From Spiractinospora alimapuensis (GTDB lineage Bacteria; Actinomycetota; Actinomycetes; Streptosporangiales; Streptosporangiaceae): a stretch of DNA of 64,000 nt. The notes under the pieces are model-generated. The model saw only the letters and a list, made by a program, of their open reading frames with translations, ran no database searches and was not told the DNA's origin. This document shows, one piece after another, positions 28,475-34,786 of the stretch; positions within the stretch are counted from its first letter, which is position 1, and every line of letters begins with the position of its first letter. The translations under genes and the position numbers were made by a program. Location of the stretch: NCBI RefSeq assembly GCF_018437505.1, contig NZ_CP072467.1, positions 2,604,001 through 2,668,000 on the forward strand, in the 5' to 3' direction.

Positions 28475-28848
28475 TGGTGGAGGTGGCGGGAATCGAACCC
28501 GCGTCCTTCAGTACCGAATCAGGGCTTCTCCGGGTGCAGCCTCGTGTGTCGTTCTGCTTGGCCTCAGCGCTCGTACGAGGCGCGTCGCTGACAGGCCCAG
28601 CCACGTAGATTTCCCAGTTAGGCCCCGTGGCCTGATCTAACCGGTGAGTCCCCTAGACGATGCCGGGTCCTGAGGCGGGGACGCACTCAGGCCGACAGAG
28701 TCGCTACTCGCTTATGCGGCGAGGGCGAACTCAGTGCGCTTGTTATCGGCACTTGTATTTATACGATCGCATTATTGACGAGGTCACGATCGCCACCCTC
28801 GACCCGCTTCCCCTGAAGCGATCACCGAAGTCGAAACCGATCACCCCC
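28475..28848 (-). ncRNA. ssrA: Transfer-messenger RNA (tmRNA, 10Sa RNA)
   Basis: 374-nt tmRNA that rescues stalled ribosomes. The 5' end GGGGGTGATCGGTTTCGACT and the 3' end GGTTCGATTCCCGCCACC with encoded CCA form the tRNA-like part; GGGGGUG pairs with CACCUCC as a 7-bp acceptor stem. The tag reading frame lies in the 5' third, and the remaining part folds into pseudoknots as in other one-piece tmRNAs. Its partner smpB is 2.4 kb upstream on the same strand, with a PBP-like gene between. No clear promoter was found within 60 bp upstream. Confidence 0.95.
28712..28750 (-). other. tmRNA proteolysis tag (ADNKRTEFALAA)
   Basis: Thirteen codons including stop: GCC GAT AAC AAG CGC ACT GAG, then TTC GCC CTC GCC GCA TAA. 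The hydrophobic ALAA end is the usual degradation signal. The resume codon is placed at GCC by analogy with other actinobacterial tags; it cannot be proven from the sequence. Confidence 0.75.
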
Positions 28849-29190: not shown

Positions 29191-31194
29191 TCAACCACCT
29201 TGGTGCTCGAGGTCCTCCGGCGAGGGCTGATCCGCCTGGGAGTCGGGGTCCCCGACGTAGTCGGGGGGCAGGGCGACCAGGAAGTCCGCTGACGCGCCCA
29301 CGGCGTACTGGGTGCCCAGGCCCACCACGAGGTGCTCGTAGGGGGCGTCGACCTCGATCGCGGTGGCGAAGGCGACATGCCCCTGGTAGCCCACGAACCA
29401 CTGCACGACGCGGTCCTCGCCGTCCACGTTCTGGGGGACGGTCGCCACCTGGCCGTGGACCGGCACCGTCCCGACACCCGCCGCGGAGGCGCGGCCGGAG
29501 GTGACGGTGGTGCGCATGAGCTCCCGCAACTGCTCCAGCGCGTCGGAGTCCAGGCCCGCCTCGGCGAGGTCGGTGTCCTCCGCCGTCACCTGGTCGAGTT
29601 CGTCGGAGCTGACCAGGGTGGGTGAACGCCACGTGCCGTCGGCGACGGCACCGGCGGCGAGCGCCATGCTCAGCGGGCTGACCGTCACACCCGTTTCACC
29701 CGCCGCGGTGGCGGCGGTGTCACCCGGTCCGGCCGGGGTCTCCACCGATCCGGGGAACGCGTCCACCGGCAGTTGCCACTCCGCCCCGATCCCGAACGTG
29801 GCCGCGGTGTCGGAGAGCGCCTCCGCGTCGAGGTCCTCTCCGAAGGCGGCCAGGCCGGCGGAGCAGGCCTGCGCGAAGTTCTGTTGCAGGGTGGCCTCGC
29901 CCCAGAGCTGCTCCCCGCTGAGGTTGGCGACCGAGTGATCACCGAAGCTGCCCTCGGGGTCGCAGGCGGCGGTGTCCTCGGGCGAGACCCCGGCGGCGAG
30001 CATGGCCGCCCCCGAGACCACGCTGAAGGCCGCGCCCGGACGGTACTCGGCGGTCAGGGCCGCGTCCTCGTCGAGATCGGTTGGATAGTCCGCCGCGGCG
30101 AGGACGCTTCCGTCCCGGGAGTCGACCGCGACCATCGAGCCGCGCACGACGGGTTCCTGCACCTCACCGCTGGCCAGCGCCTCCTCGGCGGCTTCCTGGA
30201 CCTCACGGTCGAGGGTCGTCTGCAGCGTCCCGCTGGCGCTCCCGCTCCACTGTTCGACGTCGTCGACGTGCGCGCCGTCCTCGTCCAGGGTCACGATCCG
30301 CGCGGTGGCCGTCCCGGAGAGACGCTGTTGGTAGGCGGCCTGCAGGCCGTTGAGACCGACGGTGTCCCCCGCCTGGTAGGGGCCGCCCACCCGGTTGGCG
30401 ATGTTGTGCTCGTCTGTGCCGGCGACCTCCCCGACGAGGCTGGGGGCGACCTCGGGGGTGAGGGGCATCGTCGTCTCTTCGGTCTCGACCCCGTCGATCC
30501 CGCCGGCGCTGCGCACGAGCCCGGAGTCGACGTCGTCGGCGCGCATCAGCACCAGCGGCTGGAAGTCCTCCGGAGGGGCGGAGCGGACCCGGTTGAGGAA
30601 CGGTGCCGGGTCCTCGTCGAGGAGCTCGGCGAAGGCGTCGATGCCCGCCTCCATGTCGGGCATCTCGCCGGGGCGCACCCCGAACGCGACGACCTCCGTC
30701 TCCTCGACCAAGGGCTCGTCGTCACGGTCGAGGATCTGGCCACGGTCGGGGACGTCATAGGTGACGGCGAGTCGTTCCTCGCTGTCCAGCAGGGGGTGGA
30801 TTACCGTGGGCCCCCAGTCGATCAGCCAGCGGCCGCCGTCACGGTGCAGCGACATCGTGCCCGAGTACTGCCACACCGGGTCGCCGATGCCGAGGTCGGC
30901 GTCGACCTCGAAGGTGGCCTCAGCGGTGTCGCCGTCGCGGGAGACCGCACCGAGCGCCAGCCGCAGGGCGGCGAGGTCGAGCTGGTCGTGGAACGCCGTG
31001 AGCTGGGCGGCGACCTCCTGCGGGTCACCGTCGGTACGTTGGGCCGCGGCCTCGTGGTTCCCGCTCTGCCATTCCAGCAGGAACTCCCGGACCGCGACCT
31101 CCGCGCTGGGTTCGGCGCCGCATCCGACTAACGCCCCAGCCGCGGTGAGACCGAAGGCAACCGCGGCGCTCCGGCGAAGACGGCCAAACAGCAC
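29191..31194 (-). CDS. PBP-like lipoprotein lacking transpeptidase active-site motifs
   Basis: 667-residue exported lipoprotein (lipobox ALVGC, Cys25). Layout: NTF2-like MecA_N domain (about 30-140), PBP dimerisation domain (about 145-310) and transpeptidase fold (about 335-640), as in class B PBPs. All three active-site motifs are gone. SxxK reads Ala388-A-F-Ser391 (PGAAFS instead of PGSTFK), SxN reads A-C-S at 443-445, and KTG reads Q-V-A at 582-584 (HGQVAT). The rest of the fold, including WFVGYQGHVAFA, is well kept and the frame is intact. It is therefore probably a pseudo-enzyme with a structural or regulatory role in cell-wall synthesis. GTG start with AAAGGA. It lies 15 bp downstream of smpB, probably in one operon. 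Confidence 0.88.
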   Translation of the reverse strand: MLFGRLRRSAAVAFGLTAAGALVGCGAEPSAEVAVREFLLEWQSGNHEAAAQRTDGDPQEVAAQLTAFHDQLDLAALRLALGAVSRDGDTAEATFEVDADLGIGDPVWQYSGTMSLHRDGGRWLIDWGPTVIHPLLDSEERLAVTYDVPDRGQILDRDDEPLVEETEVVAFGVRPGEMPDMEAGIDAFAELLDEDPAPFLNRVRSAPPEDFQPLVLMRADDVDSGLVRSAGGIDGVETEETTMPLTPEVAPSLVGEVAGTDEHNIANRVGGPYQAGDTVGLNGLQAAYQQRLSGTATARIVTLDEDGAHVDDVEQWSGSASGTLQTTLDREVQEAAEEALASGEVQEPVVRGSMVAVDSRDGSVLAAADYPTDLDEDAALTAEYRPGAAFSVVSGAAMLAAGVSPEDTAACDPEGSFGDHSVANLSGEQLWGEATLQQNFAQACSAGLAAFGEDLDAEALSDTAATFGIGAEWQLPVDAFPGSVETPAGPGDTAATAAGETGVTVSPLSMALAAGAVADGTWRSPTLVSSDELDQVTAEDTDLAEAGLDSDALEQLRELMRTTVTSGRASAAGVGTVPVHGQVATVPQNVDGEDRVVQWFVGYQGHVAFATAIEVDAPYEHLVVGLGTQYAVGASADFLVALPPDYVGDPDSQADQPSPEDLEHQGG

Positions 31195-31209: not shown

Positions 31210-31674
31210 CTAGCGGCGGCGACGCATCGCGCGTTCGATGTCGCGTTGCGCGTCGCGGGCCGCGATGTCCTGGCGCTTATCGTATTCGCGTTTACCGCGT
31301 GCCAAGGCGATCTCGACTTTAGCCTTGCCGTCGGAGAAGTAGAGGGACAGGGGCACGATAGTGAGTCCCGCCTCCTTGGTCTTCGCCTCGAGCCGGCCGA
31401 TCTCCTGACGGTGCAGCAGCAGCTTCCGGGTGCGGCGTGGCGTGTGGTTGGTCCACGTCCCCATGACGTACTCGGGGATGTGCACGTTGTGCAGCCACAC
31501 CTCCCCGTCCCGTATGGAGGCGAACCCGTCGGTGAGCGATGCGCGCCCCGCGCGCAACGCCTTCACCTCGGTGCCGGTGAGTACCAGCCCCGCCTCGAAC
31601 GTATCCACGATGGCGTAGTCGTGCCGCGCGCGCTTGTTCTGCGCGATCAACTTCCGCCCTTGCTCTTTTGCCAC
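31210..31674 (-). CDS. smpB: SsrA-binding protein SmpB
   Basis: 154 residues: [46 protein letters not shown]-like [25 protein letters not shown], and the basic C-terminal tail that enters the mRNA channel ([12 protein letters not shown]). It binds tmRNA and delivers it to stalled ribosomes. GTG start. Part of the ftsE-ftsX-smpB-PBP-like-ssrA block. Confidence 0.97.
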
Positions 31675-31698: not shown

Positions 31699-32607
31699 CT
31701 AGACCTTCAGATATCGCCGCAGGGTGATGAAGGATGCCACAAGACAGATCAAAACGCCCAGGATTATCGTCACGCCGATCACGTAGAACACCGAGCCCAG
31801 GCCGAGCGTGATGTCGAACTGGAACCAGCTCTGGACCCGGTCCAGCAGGGTGAACTTCGCGCCGACGATGAACGCCGAGGCGATGAAGCCACCGAGGAGC
31901 CCGGCGACCACGCCTTCCAGCAGGAACGGTAGCTGGATGTAGAAGTTGGAGGCGCCGACGAGCCGCATGATGCCCGTCTCCCGCCGTCTGCTGTACGCCG
32001 AGAGGCGGATGGTGTTGCCGATCAGCAGCGCGGCGGCGGCCAACTGGACGAAGGCGACGGTCAGGGCTCCCCACTTCAGCCCGTCGAGCAGTTCGAAGAA
32101 CTGATCGAGCACGGCCTGGTCGTCGGAGATCGAGTCGATGCCGTCCATCGAGGCGATGCGGTCCGAGACACCGTCAACCTCGCCGGAGTCCCGCACCGAC
32201 ACCCGGAAGTTGTCCGGGATGTCGCCTTCCTCGGTCGCTTCGACCAGCGCCTCGTCACCGGCGAAGCGCTCCTCGAAGTCCGCGTAGGCCTCGTCCAACG
32301 GCACGTAGCGGACGTCGGTGACCTCCGGCATGGACCGAAGTTCGTCCTCGATGGCCTGACGGTCCTCGTCGGTCGCCGCACCTTCCTCCTGGCAGACGCT
32401 CGTGGTCGAGCTCTCGGTGCAGAGGAAGACCGTCATCTGGATCCGCTCGTCCCAGAAGCGGCGCATCTCGTTGACCTGCTGGTTGATCAGCAGACCTGTG
32501 CCGAACAGCGACAGTGAGATGGCGACGGTGATGATGACGGCGATCGTCATCGTCAGGTTTCGGCGCAGGCCGATCCAGATCTCGGAGAGTACGAACTGTG
32601 CTCGCAT
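31699..32607 (-). CDS. ftsX: Cell-division ABC transporter permease FtsX
   Basis: 302 residues: a cytoplasmic N-terminus, helix 1 near residues 22-45 (VIITVAISLSLFGTGLLI), an extracellular domain (about 46-170) that typically activates cell-wall hydrolases, then three helices in the FtsX_C domain (GALTVAFVQLAAAALLIGNTI onwards). The extracellular domain contains a Cys pair in FLCTESSTTSVCQ. Acts with FtsE. Directly downstream of ftsE. Confidence 0.96.
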   Translation of the reverse strand: MRAQFVLSEIWIGLRRNLTMTIAVIITVAISLSLFGTGLLINQQVNEMRRFWDERIQMTVFLCTESSTTSVCQEEGAATDEDRQAIEDELRSMPEVTDVRYVPLDEAYADFEERFAGDEALVEATEEGDIPDNFRVSVRDSGEVDGVSDRIASMDGIDSISDDQAVLDQFFELLDGLKWGALTVAFVQLAAAALLIGNTIRLSAYSRRRETGIMRLVGASNFYIQLPFLLEGVVAGLLGGFIASAFIVGAKFTLLDRVQSWFQFDITLGLGSVFYVIGVTIILGVLICLVASFITLRRYLKV

Positions 32608-32653: not shown

Positions 32654-33343
32654 CTAATACGCCTGGCCGTAGACGCCGCGTGACTGGTCGCGGACGACGA
32701 CGCCGTCCTCAAGTTCGATGACGCGCTTACGCATCGAGTCGACGATCGCCGCGTCGTGGGTCGCCATGAGGACCGTCGTCCCGGTCCGGTTGATCCGGTC
32801 CAGCACCTTCATGATGCCGATGGACGTGGCGGGGTCGATGTTTCCGGTCGGCTCGTCGGCCAACAGGATCTGTGGGCGATTCACGAACGCCCGCGCGATG
32901 GCGACGCGCTGTTGTTCACCACCGGACAGTTCGTCCGGCATTCGGTTGGCCTTCCCCTCGAGGCCGACCAGGTCGACCACCTCGGGGACGACCTTCTTGA
33001 TGAACCGTCGGGGCTTGCCGATGACCTCCAGCGCGAAGGCGACGTTCTCGAAGACGTTCTTGTTCGGCAGCAGCCGGAAGTCCTGGAACACGCATCCGAT
33101 GCGGCGCCGCAGATGCGGCACCTTCCAGTTGGACAGGCGGGCGAGGTCCTTGCCCGCCACGTGAACCTGCCCACGGGACGGCCTTTCCTCGCGTAGCACG
33201 AGCCGCAGGAAGGTGGATTTCCCCGAGCCCGAAGGCCCAACGAGGAAGACGAACTCGCTCTTGTCGACGTGGATGGACACCGATTCAAGAGCGGGTCGCT
33301 TTTGGGTCGTATAGACCTTGGTGACGTTCTCGAAGTGGATCAC
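32654..33343 (-). CDS. ftsE: Cell-division ATP-binding protein FtsE
   Basis: 229 residues. Walker [11 protein letters not shown]-loop VFQDFRLLP, signature [15 protein letters not shown], Walker [10 protein letters not shown]. Cytoplasmic ATPase that drives FtsX-dependent activation of peptidoglycan hydrolases at the septum. GTG start at 33343. It is 46 bp upstream of ftsX. The 208 bp before it hold its promoter; no clear consensus seen. Confidence 0.97.
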
Positions 33344-33551: not shown

Positions 33552-34658
33552 TTACTGTTCGTGACTCCGCAACCAGCGGATTTCCGAGTCGATGAAAGGA
33601 TCTAGATCACCATCGAGAACCCCGGTCGGGTTGCCCGACTCCTCGCCGGTACGGAGGTCCTTGACGGTCTGGTACGGGTGCAGCACGTAGTTGCGGATCT
33701 GCGTGCCCCAACTGGTGCCGCTGTCCCCCCGCAGCTCGTCGAGTTCGGCCTGCTCCTCTTTGCGCTTGCGCTCCAGCAGCCGGGCCTGGAGCACCGTCAT
33801 CGCGGTCGCCTTGTTCTGGAGCTGACTCTTCTCGTTCTGGCACGAGACGACGATCCCGGTGGGGACGTGGGTGATGCGCACCGCGGAGTCGGTGGTGTTC
33901 ACGCTCTGCCCGCCCGGGCCCGAGGACCGATAGACGTCGATACGCAGCTCGTTCTCGTCGATCTCGACGTGGTCGCTGGTCTCCACGACCGGTACGACGT
34001 CGACCCCGGCGAAGGAGGTCTGGCGCCGGTTCTGGTTGTCGAAGGGTGAGATTCGCACCAGTCGGTGGGTGCCGTGCTCGCCCCGCAGGGTGCCGTAGCC
34101 GTAGGGCGCGTCCACCTCGAAGGTGGTGGACTTGATCCCCGCCTCCTCCGCGTAGGACGTCTCGTACACCTTGGTCGGGTAGCCGTGTCGTTCCGCCCAC
34201 CGCAGGTACATGCGCTGCAGCATCTGGGCCCAGTCGGCGGCGTCGACACCGCCCGCCTGGGAGTTGATGGTGATCAGGGCCCCGCGCTCGTCGTAGGGCC
34301 CGGCGAGGAGGGTCCGCACCTCCAGGTCGGCCATGTCCTTGCGCAGGGAGGCGAGCTCCTGCTCGGCCTCGACCCGCGTGTCGGGGTCGTCCTCCGCCTC
34401 GGCGAGCTCGAACAGGACGCCCAGGTCCTCGACGCGCTGGCGCACCGACTCCACCTTGTTCACCTCGGACTCCAAGGCGGACAGCCGGCGTGTCACCACC
34501 TGCGCGGTGGCCTGGTCGTTCCACAGCTCGGGATCGCTGGACTGCTCGCGGAGCTGGTCGATCTCGGTGTGCTTGGCGTCGAGATCCATGACGGCCTCCA
34601 CGCTCGCCAAGGTCGACGTGAGATCCCTCATCTGCTGTGTCGCGTCGATGTCTGCCAC
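33552..34658 (-). CDS. prfB: Peptide chain release factor 2
   Basis: About 368 residues, starting [17 protein letters not shown]. The codon-recognition loop is RISPF (SPF, RF2 type, for UGA/UAA) and the catalytic loop is [13 protein letters not shown] (GGQ). The frame is continuous: there is no internal UGA frameshift as in E. coli prfB. I chose GTG 34658 because TAGAAT stands seven bases before it, suggesting a leaderless transcript; the open frame to 34772 covers a GC-rich hairpin and is not coding. Confidence 0.95.
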
Positions 34659-34665
34659 GTGCCCA

Positions 34666-34671
34666 ATTCTA
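34666..34671 (-). promoter_or_regulatory. Leaderless -10 element of prfB
   Basis: TAGAAT with a 7-base spacer to the GTG start; no SD is present. No convincing -35 element is visible. Confidence 0.5.
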
Positions 34672-34730
34672 GGTCGTTTGGGGTGGCGACTCCCCCGCGG
34701 CGGTCCCCGGGGGCGCGGCGGCGCACGAAC

Positions 34731-34760
34731 GGGCCCCCCGTCCACCAGGACGAGGGGCCC
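34731..34760 (-). terminator. GC-rich terminator after glutamate dehydrogenase
   Basis: Stem GGGCCCCCCGTC / GACGAGGGGCCC with small mismatches around a CACCAG loop, 26 bp after the dehydrogenase stop and before prfB. Confidence 0.65.
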
Positions 34761-34786
34761 GCACATCCACAAGGTTCGGGGCCGGT

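Follow-up and report, generated by a model that had tools for sequence, protein, structure and literature searches.

Catalytically inactive PBP2B supports B. subtilis division structurally while PBP3 supplies the activity (PMC5656894), and C. difficile PBP3 promotes asymmetric division without catalytic activity of its own (PMC12713402). The inactivated PBP2B is a laboratory mutant of an active enzyme, and natural C. difficile PBP3 has its serine, as the naming of an S299A mutant indicates. By contrast, the protein that we describe here belongs to a natural dead lineage and lacks the serine; by analogy with inactivated PBP2B, it may have a catalysis-independent role in division. The non-catalytic roles of PBPs in these two studies rest on engineered serine mutants, whereas here evolution itself separated the structural function from the enzyme.

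M. abscessus PBP-lipo (MAB_3167c) is a class B PBP and hypothetical lipoprotein that acts in septal wall synthesis, and an S364A version of it failed to restore growth or shape (PMC9170245). PBP-lipo thus needs its serine, whereas the protein studied here has no catalytic residues and lies beside smpB. B. subtilis PBP3, S. aureus PBP2a and E. faecium PBP5 have the three-domain MecA-type layout in common with our protein and are its best solved matches by both sequence and fold. PBP2a and PBP5 have been solved with bound or acylating beta-lactams, whereas SxxK, SxN and KTG are all missing here. The kinship with PBP-lipo rests partly on the architecture that we take Rv2864c to have, and also on the tree position of active full-length relatives in other families of the class. 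Our searches of the open-licence PMC literature brought up no title or abstract on a natural pseudo-PBP family of this kind.

The window, that is the whole stretch of 64,000 nucleotides from Spiractinospora alimapuensis that we analyzed, contains the following features around the locus:

29191..31194, minus strand: pseudo-transpeptidase gene, 667 amino acids, GTG start (frame and Pfam; locus conserved in the GTDB family)
31120..31131, minus strand: lipobox-like LVGC, residues 22-25, probable lipoprotein anchor (sequence, by eye)
30781..31104, minus strand: MecA_N (NTF2-like) domain, residues 31-138 (Pfam; on average now the best conserved domain)
30262..30753, minus strand: PBP dimerisation (pedestal) domain, residues 148-311 (Pfam)
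29380..30141, minus strand: degenerate transpeptidase domain, residues 352-605 (Pfam; predicted fold like solved PBPs)
30022..30033, minus strand: former SxxK, A388-A-F-S391 (alignment)
29860..29868, minus strand: former SxN, A443-C444-S445 (alignment)
29443..29451, minus strand: former KTG, Q582-V583-A584 (alignment)
31210..31674, minus strand: smpB, the upstream neighbour (NCBIfam model above cut-off; its stop ends 15 bases before the pseudo-transpeptidase start)
31699..32607, minus strand: ftsX (NCBIfam model above cut-off)
32654..33343, minus strand: ftsE (NCBIfam model above cut-off)
33552..34772, minus strand: prfB (NCBIfam model above cut-off)
28475..28848, minus strand: tmRNA (ssrA), tag ADNKRTEFALAA, directly downstream of the pseudo-PBP

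The first-pass annotation had proposed an intact frame of 667 codons encoding a class B PBP with all three catalytic motifs replaced. The frame spans exactly 29191-31194 as it had said, on the minus strand, which it had not given. The GTG start codon occupies 31194-31192, with AAAGGA at 31206-31201, 6 bases 5' of it. The replacements at A388/S391, A443-C444-S445 and Q582-V583-A584, as well as WFVGYQGHVAFA, are present as described. The class B assignment stands, and the layout is more exactly of the MecA type (PBP2a/PBP3/PBP-lipo-like) than that of a plain class B protein. All three Pfam domains score above their cut-offs: MecA_N (PF05223) at 45.0 bits (cut-off 22), the dimerisation domain PBP_dimer (PF03717) at 56.0 bits (cut-off 24.4) and the transpeptidase (PF00905) at 76.2 bits. 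By contrast, none of the 17 NCBIfam models that match the protein exceeds its cut-off; the PBP2a/MecA equivalog NF000237 reaches 28.1 bits against a cut-off of 750, and the PBP2/MrdA equivalog TIGR03423 reaches 133.6 bits against 455. The nearest PDB sequence is B. subtilis PBP3 (7bn9).

Five syntenic active relatives read S/K/S/N/K/T/G in the motif columns, and 45 other PBP sequences keep the SxxK serine in 43, the SxxK lysine in all 45 and the KTG lysine in 42. Because these proteins retain their catalytic residues there, the columns are correctly placed. The Spiractinospora genome (5.86 Mb, one contig) encodes eight PF00905 proteins, and in the other seven SxxK, SxN and KTG are each present by pattern; the pseudo-transpeptidase is therefore the only dead one in the genome. 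A frameshift or assembly error is ruled out, as the frame is intact and relatives show the same motif losses, and we reject chance as the source of the loss.

To learn how widely the gene occurs, we searched 120 genomes of the GTDB family, from 68 genera, and for 119 of them retrieved the best match together with its flanks. Every genome contains a match (120/120), and a dead copy with a readable SxxK region is present in 118 of them, representing 67 of the 68 genera; KTG is readable in 117. A long frame is likewise retained in 118 of the 120 genomes, with a few truncated by contig ends, and even the best matches in G026 and G064, listed with in-frame stops, have frames of 653 and 627 amino acids. 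smpB lies just upstream on the same strand in 116 of the 120 (the window and 115 of the 118 loci fetched), and in syntenic loci the midpoints of the two genes are 1.0-2.3 kb apart. We counted G104 as a miss, since its only yield was an active PBP that is not syntenic (L149), and we found no smpB in its assembly. In G056, the sole genome of the 68th genus, the gene meets a contig end beside smpB after about its first 50 amino acids, which leaves the motifs unread. The G040 copy is split across two contigs, and the G073 copy, with dead motifs, is on a contig without smpB.

For motif counts we picked 138 relatives by locus range before counting: the 118, four on named contigs and sixteen further sequences (L009, L013-L041, L050, L055-L057, L061-L148 and L225-L240; L149 and L221, from f40, were kept apart). 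One of these, L135, ends before KTG. The SxxK lysine is replaced in all 137 readable sequences (by S in 65, T in 51, G in 20 and A in 1), as is the KTG lysine (by Q in 68, V in 49, I in 18 and L in 2). The SxxK serine is replaced in 127 of 137, and its position holds 12 different residues across the clade, with threonine in 50; where serine remains, in ten sequences, the lysine is lost in all ten. At SxN, the asparagine is replaced in 131 of 138 and the serine in 110, while Cys444 in the middle is kept in all 138. Aligning homologues of the same locus, as the first-pass annotation had advised, thus shows the three motifs lost throughout the family sample. The same losses across dozens of genera suggest a protein long retained for a non-enzymatic job. 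For the whole group, the label of penicillin-binding protein probably misleads.

A narrow lipobox pattern matches 100 of the 134 relatives used for conservation counts (partial sequences L041, L057, L135 and L139 removed), with start codons assigned mechanically. In 18 of the 134, including L106 and L111, residues 9-70 contain no cysteine. The N-terminus of several of those that we printed resembles a membrane helix rather than a lipobox, which may point to a changed anchor in them.

Active versions of the gene occur at the same locus outside the family. In f41, of the same order (three genomes, L222-L224), the gene lies behind smpB, ftsX and ftsE with all motifs intact, and one genome each of f7 (L162) and f35 (L163), from other orders of the same class, carries a syntenic gene with intact motifs. 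L162 and L163 were the only ones with smpB adjacent among the best 40 matches outside the family, fetched after a search of 148 genomes of the class; all 15 smpB loci fetched from other families (L205-L219) contain no relative of the pseudo-PBP. Intact motifs at the same locus in f41, f7 and f35 indicate that the ancestor was probably an enzyme. In the single genome of f40 (same order, L221), the SxxK serine is kept; the lysine is changed to Gln, and the other motifs read SCT and LAG.

In trees that included the motif columns, and in which several sequences, the window's among them, have an odd letter composition, the sampled dead genes and f40 form one clade with the active genes outside it. 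Support for this clade was SH-aLRT 100 in a 74-row tree with 32 of the 138 dead sequences, and UFBoot/SH-aLRT 100/99 in a 43-row tree with 20 of them. The simplest account would be that the chemistry was lost once, on the stem of the clade of the GTDB family and f40. Within it, the lysines and SxN look to have been lost earlier than the serine, and the place of f40, inside or beside the family, differs between the trees: it falls among the family's dead genes in the 74-row tree, and in the 43-row tree the dead sequences stand alone at 45/71. Among the active groups, f41 is only weakly placed (80/21, 43-row tree). In family f13, second PBP-lipo-like copies (L172 and L201) have the SxxK serine changed to threonine with the lysine kept, and TTG or TNG for KTG; judging by these residues, this is a separate partial loss.

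The gene evolves under constraint. Pairwise counts for 127 pairs with at least 72% identity, which have branches in common and so are not independent of one another, give a whole-gene dN/dS of 0.14-0.67 (median 0.32). The dN/dS check that had been proposed thus gives a value below 1 in 127 of 127 close pairs, and together with the family-wide motif loss it strongly supports the reading as a pseudo-transpeptidase; these two results also rule out local decay in one genome. The first-pass annotation had named, as evidence against itself, homologues at the locus with intact motifs beside a copy under relaxed selection. Syntenic homologues with intact motifs do exist, in f41, f7 and f35, but the copy in the window is no isolated relaxed gene. 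By domain, the medians are 0.26 for MecA_N, 0.29 for the dimerisation domain and 0.37 for the transpeptidase domain.

The dimerisation domain reaches an omega of at least 0.6 in 20 of the 127 pairs, with values up to 1.15 and at least 1 in two pairs. Nearly all of these high values (0.6-1.15) fall within L077, L089, L096, L102, L104, L107, L108 and L110, a group in which MecA_N is more constrained than the dimerisation domain in most pairs. It is possible that the pedestal is partly relaxed or changes fast, perhaps adaptively, in these loci.

The control came from 14 of the genomes that carry the dead gene: their active paralogue of the MecA_N type (L004 type). IQ-TREE codon models of the 14 genomes gave dead and active transpeptidase domains the same omega despite a two-fold difference in tree length; with codon-model omegas of 0.02-0.13, synonymous sites looked saturated, and we therefore relied on the counted pairwise values. 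Across nine close genome pairs, the omega of the transpeptidase domain is 0.19-0.56 in the dead gene and 0.13-0.55 in the active paralogue, the dead value being higher in eight of nine. The dead transpeptidase domain is therefore constrained, slightly less so than the active one. In MecA_N, the dead value is below the active one in only six of these pairs, with one tie and two above.

Sequence identity reveals where the constraint now resides. Over the 91 pairs of the 14 genomes, mean identity in the dead gene is 0.690 for MecA_N and 0.548 for the transpeptidase domain, against 0.588 and 0.736 in the active paralogue; pair by pair, MecA_N identity is higher for the dead gene in 72 of the 91, and transpeptidase identity is lower for it in 90. 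Mean dN follows the same order (dead gene: MecA_N 0.252, transpeptidase 0.406; active paralogue: 0.357 and 0.195). The transpeptidase domain is the more alike of the two in all 183 active pairs (two groups, 28 sequences), compared with 15% of 8,911 pairs among the 134 dead sequences, and the active groups realigned alone gave the same conservation picture. The window's own relatives (43 sequences) show the inversion strongly (0.649 for MecA_N versus 0.511) and the other 91 dead sequences more weakly (0.506 versus 0.457); in the latter, the transpeptidase domain exceeds the dimerisation domain in 67% of pairs. Counts of positions conserved to 90% or more in the 134 dead sequences, compared with 31 active ones drawn from many families, are 25 versus 4 in MecA_N, 19 versus 17 in the dimerisation domain and 35 versus 62 in the transpeptidase domain. 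Constraint has moved from the transpeptidase domain towards MecA_N, the reverse of what active relatives and the active paralogue display.

The conserved aromatics of the dead MecA_N are W42, W108, Y110, W123 and W127. In the dead transpeptidase domain, G387, F390, C411, C444, S506, P507 and W599 are kept at 99% or more, and the newly near-fixed residues include W473, W522, F600 and G602. Judged from the alignment, the conserved remainder of this domain is made up of fold residues (G387, F390, C411, C444, G468, S506, P507 and W599). An AlphaFold2 model built from 16 sequences (pLDDT 74.7, pTM 0.66, with pedestal residues 246-283 below 50) has B. subtilis PBP3 7bn9 as its best Foldseek match (E 4.3e-33, TM-score 0.60, rmsd 7.6). 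At full length the model matches PBP3, PBP2a and PBP5 with TM-scores of 0.5-0.6 and large rmsd (Foldseek), and its two C-terminal domains match many solved PBPs with Z of 37-40 (VIA-align). These matches to solved PBPs suggest that the dead protein should still adopt a PBP fold.

We think it probable, with some reservation, that the protein is an anciently inactivated, selectively kept and mostly lipid-anchored pseudo-transpeptidase of the MecA type; its role as a non-catalytic scaffold or adaptor in wall synthesis is what we infer. In such a scheme, an enzyme of the PBP-lipo kind would have lost its acyl-transfer chemistry in the ancestor of the GTDB family and f40 and then been kept. The protein would reside on the outer face of the membrane, as a lipoprotein in most members, and would hold wall-synthesis complexes together or link them without catalysis, probably at the septum. 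Partners would dock mainly on MecA_N, and the dead transpeptidase domain would either serve as a rigid body or bind stem peptides reversibly, while active paralogues of the same genome would perform the cross-linking. Because M. abscessus PBP-lipo needs its serine (PMC9170245), the same probably held for the active ancestor; the non-catalytic job must then have become primary once cross-linking had passed to active paralogues. Among the counterpoints, the placement next to ftsEX is older than the loss and may simply have been inherited, and ten of 137 relatives as well as f40 still have the SxxK serine, though without the lysine.

A more specific version, which we put forward only tentatively, would make MecA_N the working part of a beta-lactam-proof receptor or adaptor that, outside the membrane, reads the state of the wall or divisome and sets the activity of FtsEX or an active synthase. 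If true, it would mean that a penicillin target had become, in nature and long ago, a regulator without catalysis, and that a whole bacterial family carries a dedicated, probably important pseudo-PBP. A little less probable still, and on balance unlikely, is that the protein is a receptor for peptidoglycan itself, in which a cleft between MecA_N and the pedestal, or the emptied groove, reversibly binds nascent strands or stem peptides and signals to a partner such as FtsEX or a synthase. MecA_N is on average the most constrained part and is rich in conserved aromatics, one structure of PBP2a, a structural match, contains a peptidoglycan analogue bound allosterically (3zg5, by its entry title), and the model predicts that the dead domain retains its overall fold. 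However, the substrate-holding KTG and SxN residues are lost and variable, and the conserved MecA_N aromatics may be mere core packing.

Slow decay, in which a dying PBP survives through its place in a conserved operon, would fit a transpeptidase domain that changes about twice as fast as that of the active paralogue (by mean dN), the one pair with a whole-gene omega of 0.67 and the two pairs of 127 in which the dimerisation domain passes 1. Against it, the long frame persists in 118 of 120 genomes, whole-gene dN/dS stays below 1 in every close pair, MecA_N gained conservation and the fold residues remain at 99% or more; we consider decay very improbable. Marginally less credible still is an enzyme with new catalytic residues, another nucleophile having replaced the serine-lysine pair. 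The threonine at the serine position in 50 of 137 sequences and the invariant Cys444 could be taken as candidates, but that position varies among 12 residues across the clade, the 31 active relatives show the same invariance of Cys444 and Cys411, and the conserved positions of the transpeptidase domain include no new acid, base or nucleophile. As to the favoured scaffold or adaptor, a single locus, with an active gene in neighbouring families and a dead one throughout the genera sampled from this family, allows the structural function to be studied apart from the enzyme, and the residues behind that function to be read from what stayed conserved.

The genes around the locus, for which flanks of about 5 kb or less were examined, agree with what the first-pass annotation had said of them, since smpB and ftsEX are borne out by NCBIfam models above cut-off. 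With smpB on one side and ssrA on the other, the pseudo-PBP stands between the partners of trans-translation, behind ftsEX. We did not accept adjacency to ftsEX as proof of function, because the active version holds the same position; as the still-active gene already sat there, the ftsEX-smpB position alone is no argument for a scaffold role. ARAGORN found a tmRNA downstream on the same strand at 28 of the 30 dead-gene loci scanned (the exceptions being L150 and L154), at most 1.5 kb away in most loci having one. At L218 (family f18), smpB and ssrA adjoin with no PBP between them. An open reading frame at 7406-8617 of L065 (minus strand), between ftsX and smpB, resembles by eye a PDZ/S41 carboxy-terminal protease, and a similar frame may account for the wider ftsX-smpB gap at several other loci. 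The tmRNA tag peptides of L062, L069, L074, L077 and L146 are longer, unlike the usual AN..RTEFALAA, for example ANKTHSEVKSQGSLALAA.
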